From Thermococcus alcaliphilus (GTDB lineage: Archaea > Methanobacteriota_B > Thermococci > Thermococcales > Thermococcaceae): DNA of 64,000 nt. Every line of letters starts with the position of its first letter. Position 1 is the first letter of the stretch. The stretch spans positions 62,001 to 126,000 of the forward strand of contig NZ_JAMXLV010000018.1 of NCBI RefSeq assembly GCF_024054535.1, given 5' to 3'. The notes beneath the pieces are model-generated. The model did not search any database and had not been told where the DNA came from. It saw only the letters and a list, made by a program, of their open reading frames with translations. The position numbers were made by a program, and so were the translations under genes. Positions 2 through 8,696 of the stretch are shown one piece after another.

Positions 2-469
2 TTCGTTGCAGGGGCTATTGAGGACGTTATCTGGAGAGCTTGGAAAGAAGAAAATCCGGATGTTATTGTTACACACGGAGAGGGTTCTCTCCTCCACCCA
101 GCTTATCCAGGTGGATTTGAGTTAATAGCCTCAGGTAGACCAGACTACATTGTGCTCCAGCATGCCCCGGCAAGAAAATTCTTCGATGACTTCCCTCAGT
201 ACGAAATTCCACCATTAGAGAGGTACATACAGCTGATTGAACTCCTCTCTGGTAAGAAGCCAATAGCTATCACAATAAACTCTGAAAGACTTACGAAGGA
301 AGAAGCTATCCAAAAAGCCAGGGAAATAGAAGCAACTTACGGAATTCTAACGAGAGTACCTCTATATGAGGGTGTCGAAGACATAGTTAAGGCAATTCTT
401 GAAGACGCAGAACACTTAAAAGCAGTGGCCCAGCAAGAGGTGACTGCAAATGCCTCTCAAATGCTTTGA
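2..469 (+). CDS. DUF1611-family protein, C-terminal part (5' end outside window)
   Basis: The frame is open from base 2, so only the C-terminal ~155 residues are present. The stretch VTHGEGSLLHPAYPGG and the following VLQHAP segment are typical of the DUF1611 P-loop family, whose bacterial member DgcN is described as a D-glutamate N-acetyltransferase and is often found near dipeptide epimerases. The stop overlaps the next gene by 20 bases, implying translational coupling. Substrate in this archaeon is unknown; the D-glutamate link is an inference from family context only. Confidence 0.75.
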   Translation, partial: FVAGAIEDVIWRAWKEENPDVIVTHGEGSLLHPAYPGGFELIASGRPDYIVLQHAPARKFFDDFPQYEIPPLERYIQLIELLSGKKPIAITINSERLTKEEAIQKAREIEATYGILTRVPLYEGVEDIVKAILEDAEHLKAVAQQEVTANASQML

Positions 470-1883
470 TTACATATCCATTGAAAAGCCAAAGCTCTCT
501 TCTCGGAGGATCTCCTCCGTTTATACAATTTCTATTGATGGAAATGAGGAAAAATTTAGGCTCATTCACACCTACGAAGAAAAAATTCCCAGAAATGAAG
601 TCTTCGCAAAGCTTATGGTCATAACTCCAGCGATAAACTACGCTCTCTTCACCCCAGAAATTTTCTTTAACTTTCCCCTCGATCCAAGAGACCTGCAGTT
701 CTTTAAGGATATGATGGGGCTTACTGCAAATGATATCCTTGTGAACAGGATATACAAGAGGACAGGATTTGTCAGGGAAGAGTTCATCCCCAAAGAGATA
801 AAACCGCAGCCTTTAGCGGAGGTTGTCCCGGAAAGAGTTGAAGAGGAAAATGTAAAACTAACTCCCGGCTACAACAAATGCGCTGTAATGCTTAGTGGTG
901 GAAAGGAGAGCCTTCTCACCTATGGGCTTATGAAGGAGATCGGGTGCGAGGTTTATCCATTCTTTTTCAACGAATCCGGTGGACACTGGAAAGTTGCCCT
1001 AACAGCGTACAAGTGGTTCAAGGAGCATGAGCCAAATACCAAGAAAGTGTGGAGCAACGTGGACAGGCTTTACACATTTATAGAAAAGCACATGAAGATA
1101 CTTCAAAACGTAGGCAAGCCAAAGGCTGAGGTATATCCGATAAGGCTATTTTTCTTTGAGCATTACGTCTTCTCCTTCCTGCCACTAATTGAAAAGTACA
1201 ACATAGGAAATGTTTTGCTAGGCAACGAATATGACGACCCAAGAGGTCTCACCTACGAGTTCCATGGGATACCTCACTTTTATGCCGTCCTCGACCAGAG
1301 CCAGTTCTTCGACAAGTATATGACGAGATGGTTCGCCGAGAGGGGCTTAAATATAAGGCAGTGGTCTGCCGTAAGACCAATAACGGGACTTATCGTTGAG
1401 AGAATCCTCTACAACCGCTATCCGGAGCTCTTTAAACTCCAGAGGAGCTGTCACTCAGTTCACAAGGAGGGTGAAGATTATGTCCCCTGTGGCACATGCT
1501 TCAAGTGTAATGGTATCCAAACTTTTCTGCTCGCCAATGGAATAGATCCCCAGCTCATCAAATACAAACCACACCATATAGAAACACTCCCCAAGAGGAT
1601 AGCGAAAGGAAAAGTTAGACTTGACGAAGATGAACTCCAGCACTCACTCTATCTAATAAAGCAGAGAACCCCCAATTTTCCGCTAAGCGGGAAGAGGAGA
1701 GACCACGTGGAGATGCTCCACTTCGATGATAGAAATTCTCACTTCGACAACATCCCCCTGGAGTTCAGGAAGAGGATATACTCAATCTTTGAGCAGTATA
1801 CAAAAGGATATGCCTATCTAAAGGAAGGCAAATGGGTTGAAATAACAAGGGAGGAGGTGCTTCATGGAGTACACGATAGTTGA
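450..1883 (+). CDS. PP-loop ATPase with QueC-like zinc cysteines
   Basis: A 477-residue protein. Residues 1-140 form an unrecognised N-terminal domain. A PP-loop ATP-pyrophosphatase motif SGGKES lies at about 149-154. Cysteines near 334, 348, 351 and 354 (SCHS..., then CGTCFKC) resemble the zinc site of QueC-like enzymes. PP-loop enzymes adenylate a substrate and release PPi. The bacterial glutamate epimerase MurL is also ATP-dependent and makes AMP, so an epimerase-like role is one possibility; QueC-like or amide-forming chemistry is another. It overlaps DUF1611 upstream and a GNAT gene downstream by 20 bases each, so the three are probably one operon. Confidence 0.7.
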   Translation: MPLKCFDYISIEKPKLSSRRISSVYTISIDGNEEKFRLIHTYEEKIPRNEVFAKLMVITPAINYALFTPEIFFNFPLDPRDLQFFKDMMGLTANDILVNRIYKRTGFVREEFIPKEIKPQPLAEVVPERVEEENVKLTPGYNKCAVMLSGGKESLLTYGLMKEIGCEVYPFFFNESGGHWKVALTAYKWFKEHEPNTKKVWSNVDRLYTFIEKHMKILQNVGKPKAEVYPIRLFFFEHYVFSFLPLIEKYNIGNVLLGNEYDDPRGLTYEFHGIPHFYAVLDQSQFFDKYMTRWFAERGLNIRQWSAVRPITGLIVERILYNRYPELFKLQRSCHSVHKEGEDYVPCGTCFKCNGIQTFLLANGIDPQLIKYKPHHIETLPKRIAKGKVRLDEDELQHSLYLIKQRTPNFPLSGKRRDHVEMLHFDDRNSHFDNIPLEFRKRIYSIFEQYTKGYAYLKEGKWVEITREEVLHGVHDS

Positions 1884-2328
1884 CGGGGAGATATATCTGG
1901 AAGAGATCAAAAAGCTTGACAGGGAAATAAGCTACTCATTCGTTCGCTTTTCCATTCCCTATGAGGACTTCGCAAAGAGGCACGAAGAACTCTTTAGAGA
2001 GCTCCTTTCACATGGAGAACACAAGTTCTTCGCAGCCCTCGATGAGAAAGGAAAGCTACTGGGCCATGTCTGGGTTTGTTTGACCCTCGATACTGTTGAT
2101 TACGTTAAAATAGCCTACATTTACGACATCGAAGTTATTAAAAAGGCAAAAGGGCTTGGAATCGGTTCAGCCCTTTTAAGAAGAGCTGAAGCATGGGCAA
2201 GAGAGAAGGGAGCAAAGAAAGTTGTACTTAGGGTGGAAGTTGATAACCCTGCAGTAAAATGGTACGAAGAAAGGGGATACAAGGGAAGAGCACTTATAAT
2301 GGAGAAATTGCTAAACTTCAAAAATTAA
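1864..2328 (+). CDS. GNAT-family N-acetyltransferase
   Basis: A 154-residue single-domain GNAT protein. The acetyl-CoA pyrophosphate loop reads KAKGLGIGSALL near residues 96-107, followed by the usual VEVDNPAVKWYEERGY motif of the last strands and helix. The ATG has a GGAGGTG site just upstream and lies inside the 3' end of the PP-loop gene, so it is probably translationally coupled. Its substrate is unknown; a small molecule made by the two upstream enzymes is a reasonable guess. The 3' end overlaps the convergent nitrilase gene by 18 bases. Confidence 0.8.
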   Translation: MEYTIVDGEIYLEEIKKLDREISYSFVRFSIPYEDFAKRHEELFRELLSHGEHKFFAALDEKGKLLGHVWVCLTLDTVDYVKIAYIYDIEVIKKAKGLGIGSALLRRAEAWAREKGAKKVVLRVEVDNPAVKWYEERGYKGRALIMEKLLNFKN

Positions 2329-2976
2329 GAGCTTATCTCCTTTACTTTGGCTCAAGAGATTTCCGCTCTCATCAAACACCCAAGTCCCGCCCGGAGGGTA
2401 ACTGTTCACAATGAAAGTTTTAACACCAAGTAGTTTAGCCCTTTCGGACATTGCCTTAAGGTCTTCTTCACTTATCTTTCCGCTCTCGGGTGAATATTCC
2501 ATGGGTACGAACAGAAAATCGGGCTTTTTCTTTCTTATCCACTTCGCTATGCGCTTGTTGTAAAGATCACCACAGATGATGATTGCAACCTTACCGAACT
2601 CAGTCTTAGCGGTCTTCACTGTATTGCCCGTACAGAACTTCATTGGTTCCTGAAACTTCCGGTGCTTAAGAATAACTTCTCCTTCACGGTTTATCAAGAG
2701 AGCAGAGTTATAAACACAGTTCTTATACGGTTCCAAGAGCCCAAAGATTACATACACAGCATTATTCTTCGCAAGAGTGCTCACTCTCTCGACAATTTCA
2801 TCATATAGCTTTGCTCCACCGAAGTCCCACTCTCTAAAGCCAGTTAGGCAGTACTCCGGAAACACCAAGATATCTGGATTGTACTCTAATGCCTCTTTAA
2901 ACCTCTGTTTGAACTCCTTCCAGTTAGTCTCAAAGTTTCCATCTTCAACGTGCATCGAGATTAGGACAACTTTCAC
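2311..2976 (-). CDS. Carbon-nitrogen hydrolase (nitrilase superfamily)
   Basis: About 222 residues. The Glu-Lys-Cys catalytic triad is visible: FPEYCLTG (Glu), KHRKFQEP (Lys) and IIICGDLY (Cys). Such enzymes hydrolyse amides or nitriles, for example omega-amides. The chosen GTG reads MKVVLISMH and has a GGTG site 6 bases upstream; a second in-frame GTG lies 9 bases further out at 2985. At this length it is shorter than the ~260-residue archaeal members. It converges on the GNAT gene. Substrate is not predictable from sequence. Confidence 0.8.
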   Translation of the reverse strand: MKVVLISMHVEDGNFETNWKEFKQRFKEALEYNPDILVFPEYCLTGFREWDFGGAKLYDEIVERVSTLAKNNAVYVIFGLLEPYKNCVYNSALLINREGEVILKHRKFQEPMKFCTGNTVKTAKTEFGKVAIIICGDLYNKRIAKWIRKKKPDFLFVPMEYSPESGKISEEDLKAMSERAKLLGVKTFIVNSYPPGGTWVFDESGNLLSQSKGDKLLIFEV

Positions 2977-3009
2977 CTTACACACCAGAAAAATTAAACA
3001 ATAAAAGTG

Positions 3010-6986: not shown

Positions 6987-7276
6987 CCAACCACCTCCTT
7001 CAGGATATCAGGAGAGACCTTAATATCAAACGGGACAAGTTCATAAAACCTCAAGGCTATTCCTCGTTTTTCATCTATCACGACTCTGCTCTTAACTATT
7101 CCCGCCTTTTCAAGCTTTTTTAAGTGGATTTTTGCAAGGGCCCTGCTTATTCCCAGTGCTACGGCTATCTCATTAAGGTACATTGGTCTGTTCTCTTTGG
7201 CAAGCACCCCCACAATTTTGAGCCTTAGTGGATGTCCCAGCCCATCAAGTATTCTTGCCAGTTCTTCCACATCCAT
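6983..7276 (-). CDS. ArsR-like winged-helix transcription regulator
   Basis: About 97 residues, MDVEELARILDGLGHPLRLKIV, followed by LNEIAVALGISRALAKIHLKKLEKAG, a classic winged-helix recognition region with a wing at VVIDEKRGIALRFYEL. An alternative in-frame ATG at 7294 would give a nearly leaderless product. Two perfect palindromes cover its promoter and start, implying autoregulation. The divergent neighbour is the MFS transporter of a GC-rich block, which may be a target. Confidence 0.8.
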   Translation of the reverse strand: MDVEELARILDGLGHPLRLKIVGVLAKENRPMYLNEIAVALGISRALAKIHLKKLEKAGIVKSRVVIDEKRGIALRFYELVPFDIKVSPDILKEVVG

Positions 7277-7312
7277 GTTATCACTTGATAACATGTAATC
7301 AAATGATTACAT
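7275..7312. promoter_or_regulatory. Two tandem 20-bp palindromic operators
   Basis: ATGTTATCACTTGATAACAT (7275-7294) and ATGTAATCAAATGATTACAT (7293-7312) are each perfect 9-2-9 inverted repeats of consensus ATGTWATCA-NN-TGATWACAT, with centres 18 bases apart. They overlap the minus-strand TATA (ATTTATAT, about 7311-7320) and the regulator start. This is the expected layout for cooperative binding by two dimers of the ArsR-like protein. Confidence 0.75.
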
Positions 7313-7472
7313 ATAAATTTTTCGGTAATTCGTTCAAGATTTGAGAATGGAAAAAACATACAAGACCCTGCTATTTAAGTTCCCTCAAGGATGCTCCCAT
7401 TACTCCTGCCGAAAATTATTTAAAAATTGTTCACCCAAAACACGACGCTTTAAGCCTTCAGAGGGGTTCTTT

Positions 7473-8696
7473 ATGCGCTGGAGCGAGATTCCTAGGGAAG
7501 CCAGGACCTACATGATATACCATGCACTCATAGCGCCTGGACTCATAACTTGGACGCTCTTCCCCCTCTACCTCATGATGACGGGCTACTCCGTTCTCGA
7601 AGTCGGGGCGTTCTTCACGATAGTCAACATCGCCTCGATCCCGCTCACCTACCTCTTCGGCAGGCTCTTCAACCGCTGGGACATCAAAAAGGGCCTGATA
7701 GCGATAGACATCCTCGATGGGATAGCATACGTAATGTACGGCCTTGCCAAAGGAGCAATAGCGCCGCTGATGCTCTTCGGCGGAAAAGTGATCGACAAGC
7801 TCTCCACGCTCCTCTACCCTCTCTACCAGGCCTACGAGCAGATAATTTACCCTGAAGACAAGTATGAGGAGATATTTGCATGGCACCTCCGCCTGCCTGA
7901 GATAGCCACCTTAGTGAGCTTTCCGATAATGGGCTACCTCCTCGGGTATGTGTACAACAAGCCGGAGCACTACCGCCTGACCTTCCTCTTCTTCGGCCTT
8001 CTCTCTGTCGTGACTGTTGCCTACCTCTGGCTCTTCCTCCCGAGCGTTGGTAGGGAGGAGAGGATAAGCCCGGAAGGGTTCACATTCAGGGTTGGAGAGT
8101 TTAAACGCCTAATCGCGTTTGAGACCCTCTTAACGCTCGCGTGGGGACTTGCGCCGGAGTTCATCCTCATAAACTACATTGTCTTCGTTCTCCACAAGAC
8201 GGTCTTCGAGACAACGCTGATAACCGTTGCGAGCAGTCTGATGAGAATAGCTGGCACCTACGCCAGCGAGAGGGTTCCAAAGGAAAAGGGCTTCCATGCC
8301 ATAGCCCTTGGGATGTTCCTCAACGCCTTCTACGCATTCGTGATGGCGCTCTCTCCATCCTTCTGGCTAGTCCTGGCCGTTTACGCCGTTGGCGACTTCG
8401 GCAACGCGCTGTGGTTCCCGTTCTACCGCTCGTGGCTCTTCAAGCTCATTCCAAAGGAGAGGACAACAGAGTTCCACGCGGCGATATCGAGCTACCGGAA
8501 GGTTCTCGGACTCGTAACACCGGTCGCGGCAGGTTTCCTTGCGAGCATTCACCCAACGTTGCCCTACGGTGCAAGCCTTGTGGGCTTCATAGCGGCTGGA
8601 TTGTTACTACTTATGGATTTCGAGAAGAAAGTAAAAAACTCACGCCTCGCCCATCTGCGATGTGTAGAGCCTGTAGAAGTGGCCTTTCTTTGCTAA
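7473..8696 (+). CDS. MFS-type permease
   Basis: About 407 residues starting MRWSEIPREARTYMIY after GAGGGG. Roughly 11-12 hydrophobic segments alternate with short loops, and a FGRLFNRWDIKKGL loop after the second or third helix resembles the MFS loop 2-3 motif. Substrate unknown; drug or metabolite efflux is likely from the ABC exporter next door. The gene is markedly GC-rich (36 G+C in the 60 bases 7621-7680). Its 3' end overlaps the convergent ABC gene by 57 bases. Confidence 0.75.
   Translation: MRWSEIPREARTYMIYHALIAPGLITWTLFPLYLMMTGYSVLEVGAFFTIVNIASIPLTYLFGRLFNRWDIKKGLIAIDILDGIAYVMYGLAKGAIAPLMLFGGKVIDKLSTLLYPLYQAYEQIIYPEDKYEEIFAWHLRLPEIATLVSFPIMGYLLGYVYNKPEHYRLTFLFFGLLSVVTVAYLWLFLPSVGREERISPEGFTFRVGEFKRLIAFETLLTLAWGLAPEFILINYIVFVLHKTVFETTLITVASSLMRIAGTYASERVPKEKGFHAIALGMFLNAFYAFVMALSPSFWLVLAVYAVGDFGNALWFPFYRSWLFKLIPKERTTEFHAAISSYRKVLGLVTPVAAGFLASIHPTLPYGASLVGFIAAGLLLLMDFEKKVKNSRLAHLRCVEPVEVAFLC

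Follow-up and report, generated by a model that had tools for sequence, protein, structure and literature searches.

The window, a stretch of 64,000 nucleotides of the Thermococcus alcaliphilus genome, opens inside an operon whose genes are listed in Table 1. Reading the genome sequence upstream showed that the operon begins outside the window with a gene for a PLP enzyme, and a divergent gene for an MFS protein lies upstream of it. The three enzymes encoded inside the window had been described in the initial annotation as coupled by 20-base overlaps, and the ORF coordinates give exactly 20 bases at both junctions, DUF1611/PP-loop and PP-loop/GNAT. Both overlapping start codons are preceded by GGAGGTG-like sequences (by eye), and comparable gene overlaps are also seen in related loci. 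On the opposite strand, an ORF resembling a carbon-nitrogen hydrolase (by eye) ends against the operon, and a relative of this ORF is found at the same place in several loci of the same genus.

Table 1. Genes of the operon and the ORF facing it. Unprefixed coordinates are window positions.
Feature	Coordinates	Strand	Matches and motifs
Fold-type-II PLP enzyme, 300 aa, first operon gene	L005:8467-9369, upstream of window		PF00291, NF004996
DUF1611 protein, full length, 367 aa	L005:9366-10469, mostly upstream of window		PF07755 1.1e-67 (whole), PF17396
DUF1611 protein, C-terminal part, 155 aa	2..469, open at window edge	+	PF07755 8.8e-38 (part)
PP-loop protein, 477 aa, MurL/QueC-like, without library family	450..1883	+	SGGKES loop, SC...CxxCxxC
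GNAT acetyltransferase, 154 aa	1864..2328	+	PF00583 2.2e-17
ORF resembling carbon-nitrogen hydrolase (by eye)	2311-2985	-	

Family and fold of the PP-loop protein

The PP-loop protein matched no model of Pfam, NCBIfam or PADLOC, searches of PDB sequences gave nothing usable, and tblastn of the window protein against plasmid and phage sequences returned no match. The QueC model did not match it in the Pfam scan, and QatC did not match it in the NCBIfam scan, in PADLOC or in its own genome, where the QatC model picked the QueC of the organism and not the operon gene. A match to a tRNA or deazapurine enzyme family, which the initial annotation had named as the result that would speak against its reading, was looked for in the Pfam, NCBIfam, PADLOC and own-genome searches, and none appeared.

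The AlphaFold model of the protein is confident (pLDDT 86.7). Its best PDB folds are QatC (3.8e-5) and QueC (4.1e-3), and MurL is absent among the listed structure matches. The cysteine motif SC...CxxCxxC aligns with QueC, as had been noticed before, and also with MurL. By predicted fold and motif, we can place the protein with good confidence in the MurL/QueC type. It shares with QueC and QatC the predicted fold and the four-cysteine pattern, but it differs from them in that neither family model recognises it and a separate QueC is encoded in the same genome.

The QueC-like predicted fold and motif would also suit a ligase or amide-forming enzyme, since many PP-loop enzymes yield amide or related bonds. 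Such an enzyme would couple an adenylated carboxylate to ammonia or an amine. The operon would then make and export a small modified amino acid or dipeptide whose configuration is unchanged. The MFS gene that adjoins most Thermococcales loci (intact in 17 of 22) fits such an export. However, the neighbours read include no recognisable amidotransferase or supply of ammonia, and the profile scores place MurL above QueC, so that we regard this explanation as unlikely.

Those scores were obtained with hhalign. A distant archaeal group (L097-L099) forms a bridge between the PP-loop family and MurL: family and bridge score 188, bridge and MurL 90, family and MurL 60.7, and family and QueC 38.4. Bridge aside, MurL scores highest by full profile of all families compared, and by profile the PP-loop protein appears, with moderate confidence, nearer to MurL than to QueC. 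The comparison with single sequences was repeated with five query versions. As a control, the family alone scored 34-47 with MurL and 28-35 with QueC. Other PP-loop proteins reached at most 43, for the most part in short segments around the loop. Over residues 200-390, which follow the PP-loop, the family alone scored 21-39 with MurL and 21-34 with QueC. Over the same residues, the family plus bridge reached 42-66 with single MurL sequences, against at most 35 with QueC, 24 with other PP-loop proteins and 20 with shuffled sequences, in an alignment that was built with MurL rows present and may slightly favour MurL. Clear separation of MurL is thus obtained only when the bridging archaeal family is included. 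Since the single-sequence scores of the family alone overlap those of ordinary PP-loop proteins, the direct link between the family and MurL is moderate. The likeness to MurL initially suggested therefore survives the profile tests, at moderate strength for the family alone.

The GGK(D/E)S loop, (G/S/A)NE, S306, Y324 and SC...CxxCxxC are co-linear between MurL and the PP-loop family, but identity is about 20% and the archaeal operon has no peptidoglycan context. The MurL motif HKPxECVG was not seen in the listed alignment rows of the family. When the bridging protein L098 was compared with plasmids by tblastn, a single match was obtained, a Xanthomonas murL (E 7e-3). While MurL has the MurD2 ligase as neighbour, the archaeal operon carries a DUF1611 or an ATP-grasp gene in its stead, and no Mur ligase was recognised among the operon neighbours read. 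A bacterial cell wall is lacking in these archaea, and a peptidoglycan substrate is not expected. With moderate confidence, we consider the PP-loop protein MurL-like by resemblance; MurL identity itself goes beyond the evidence.

Partner enzymes and conservation across archaea

The DUF1611 protein had been called DgcN-like. The DgcN model NF041892 does match it (169 bits over profile positions 52-325), but far below the 480-bit cut-off, and the protein is, judged by its sequence, a distant relative of DgcN. Its solved relatives in the PDB (2g0t, 2obn, 7xrj) have record names that give no tested function. The archaeal operon resembles the bacterial DgcN/DgcA pathway for D-glutamate in pairing a DUF1611 protein with a possible epimerase. 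It differs in this low score and in that the epimerase would here be of the PP-loop type. An enolase-superfamily epimerase, which the initial annotation had suggested looking for upstream, is not present in the upstream stretch read; the only such gene seen beside the operon belongs to a distant relative (L096).

The PLP enzyme belongs to the rare family PRK06381, and it matches the NCBIfam model NF004996, named threonine synthase, with 425 bits (cut-off 266). This score would favour a true threonine synthase, whose neighbours would serve threonine or a nearby pathway. However, several other threonine-synthase-like genes are present in the genome, one of them 3 kb away. Moreover, two residues invariant in five threonine synthases are changed in 31 of 31 operon PLP proteins (threonine to C65, lysine to R95), and the arginine of the NPxRIEG motif, which we take to have a phosphate role in threonine synthases, is not kept in the same comparison. 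We thus find this explanation very improbable.

Of the 115 genomes compared in the phylum, a PP-loop match is present in 27 (in some as a remnant only), a DUF1611 match in 25 and an operon-type PLP gene in 22, the last a count that leaves out two further weak matches. PP-loop and DUF1611 genes are shared by 24 genomes and unshared in 3 and 1. The genes are strongly coupled (Fisher 2e-20 and 4e-19, with related genomes counted as independent); as related genomes are not independent, we take these statistics as description. The order PLP-DUF1611-PP-loop is maintained in most Thermococcales loci. In Thermoproteota, strong PP-loop matches were obtained in 18 of 398 genomes, and in 15 of the 18 the three genes are adjacent, in the same order. 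Two genomes (G358 and G396) have PLP-DUF1611 separated from PP-loop-GNAT, and in G352 the PLP gene was not found. In one locus (L004), DUF1611 and PP-loop form a single in-frame ORF, for which a sequencing error is possible. The PLP, DUF1611 and PP-loop genes occur as a set in Thermococcales and Thermoproteota, and broken copies decay jointly. Judging by this decay and the patchy presence, the operon is dispensable.

Broken or remnant operons with internal stops and fragments were observed in the Thermococcales loci L053, L054, L038, L039, L030 and L031. Elsewhere, a DUF1611 gene without PP-loop partner has an ORF resembling an alanine-racemase fold (by eye) 3 kb away (L122:3152-4228 and 7272-8351).

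A possible epimerisation pathway

From the observed linkage, family assignments and sequence resemblance, we infer the reactions, substrates and direction that follow. Activated N-acyl amino acids epimerise readily, so the presence of an N-acylating enzyme beside an adenylating one suggests an epimerisation pair. We tentatively propose, as the reading that we find best and that is quite possible, that the operon encodes a pathway in which the DUF1611 and PP-loop enzymes switch an N-acylated amino acid from one configuration to the other. DUF1611 would acylate the amino group of the amino acid in the manner of DgcN, which has been reported to act in this way on D-glutamate. The PP-loop enzyme would use ATP to activate the alpha-carboxylate as an adenylate, which would render the alpha hydrogen acidic, perhaps by way of an oxazolone. 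The alpha carbon would epimerise, and hydrolysis of the adenylate by the PP-loop enzyme would follow, as has been proposed for MurL. The PLP enzyme may supply or consume the amino acid, a second position may be acylated by GNAT, and transport of the compound may fall to the divergent MFS protein. In L097, where DUF1611 is absent, a Ddl-like ATP-grasp/GNAT fusion adjoins the PLP and PP-loop genes, and so a substrate of N-acyl or peptide type could arise by another route.

MurL consumes ATP with release of AMP, and carboxylate adenylation has been proposed for it (PMC8788868, PMC5808125). That this mechanism is itself only a proposal counts against the pathway, and so does the DUF1611 score far under the DgcN cut-off. 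The initial annotation, which raised a D-amino-acid or peptide-modifying pathway, is supported in part; the product of the operon may be a D-amino acid or a peptide. It seems to us rather doubtful that, in archaea lacking peptidoglycan, DUF1611 provides an N-acylated amino acid as substrate for an ATP-driven epimerase of the MurL type. No such archaeal D-amino-acid route was found described in the literature consulted on the topic.

The variable neighbours in relatives, the ATP-grasp/GNAT fusion of L097 among them, suggest acidic amino acids or peptides as the compounds handled, in single or few cases. In L096, the enolase-superfamily epimerase and an M14 peptidase adjoin the operon; several Thermoproteota carry an Asparaginase_2 gene (isoaspartyl-peptidase type) that diverges from the PP-loop gene; and an M20-like gene, below the Pfam cut-off, lies in the vicinity of L097. 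These genes would agree with salvage, and bacterial DgcN does function in D-glutamate use. Heat-damaged protein or bacterial walls would in that case be the source of peptides, taken up by the cell, or of free D- or iso-amino acids, and these would be N-acylated, converted to L forms and degraded. However, MurL converts only L to D (PMC8788868), none of these peptidase neighbours was seen in the Thermococcales loci, and patchy presence fits either direction, so that salvage seems improbable to us.

If the epimerisation pathway is true, ATP-driven epimerisation would extend past bacterial walls, and a function would be assigned to a conserved archaeal protein family that has no model in the libraries searched. 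It would also hint at a novel metabolite of hyperthermophiles. Being compact and seemingly dispensable, the operon is amenable to knockout.

In Thermoproteota, a gene of about 245 aa (cluster c13) is conserved near the operon (L083, L084, L085, L087, L089, L090, L080 and L127, the L127 copy by eye) and resembles, by eye, a DNA-binding regulator.
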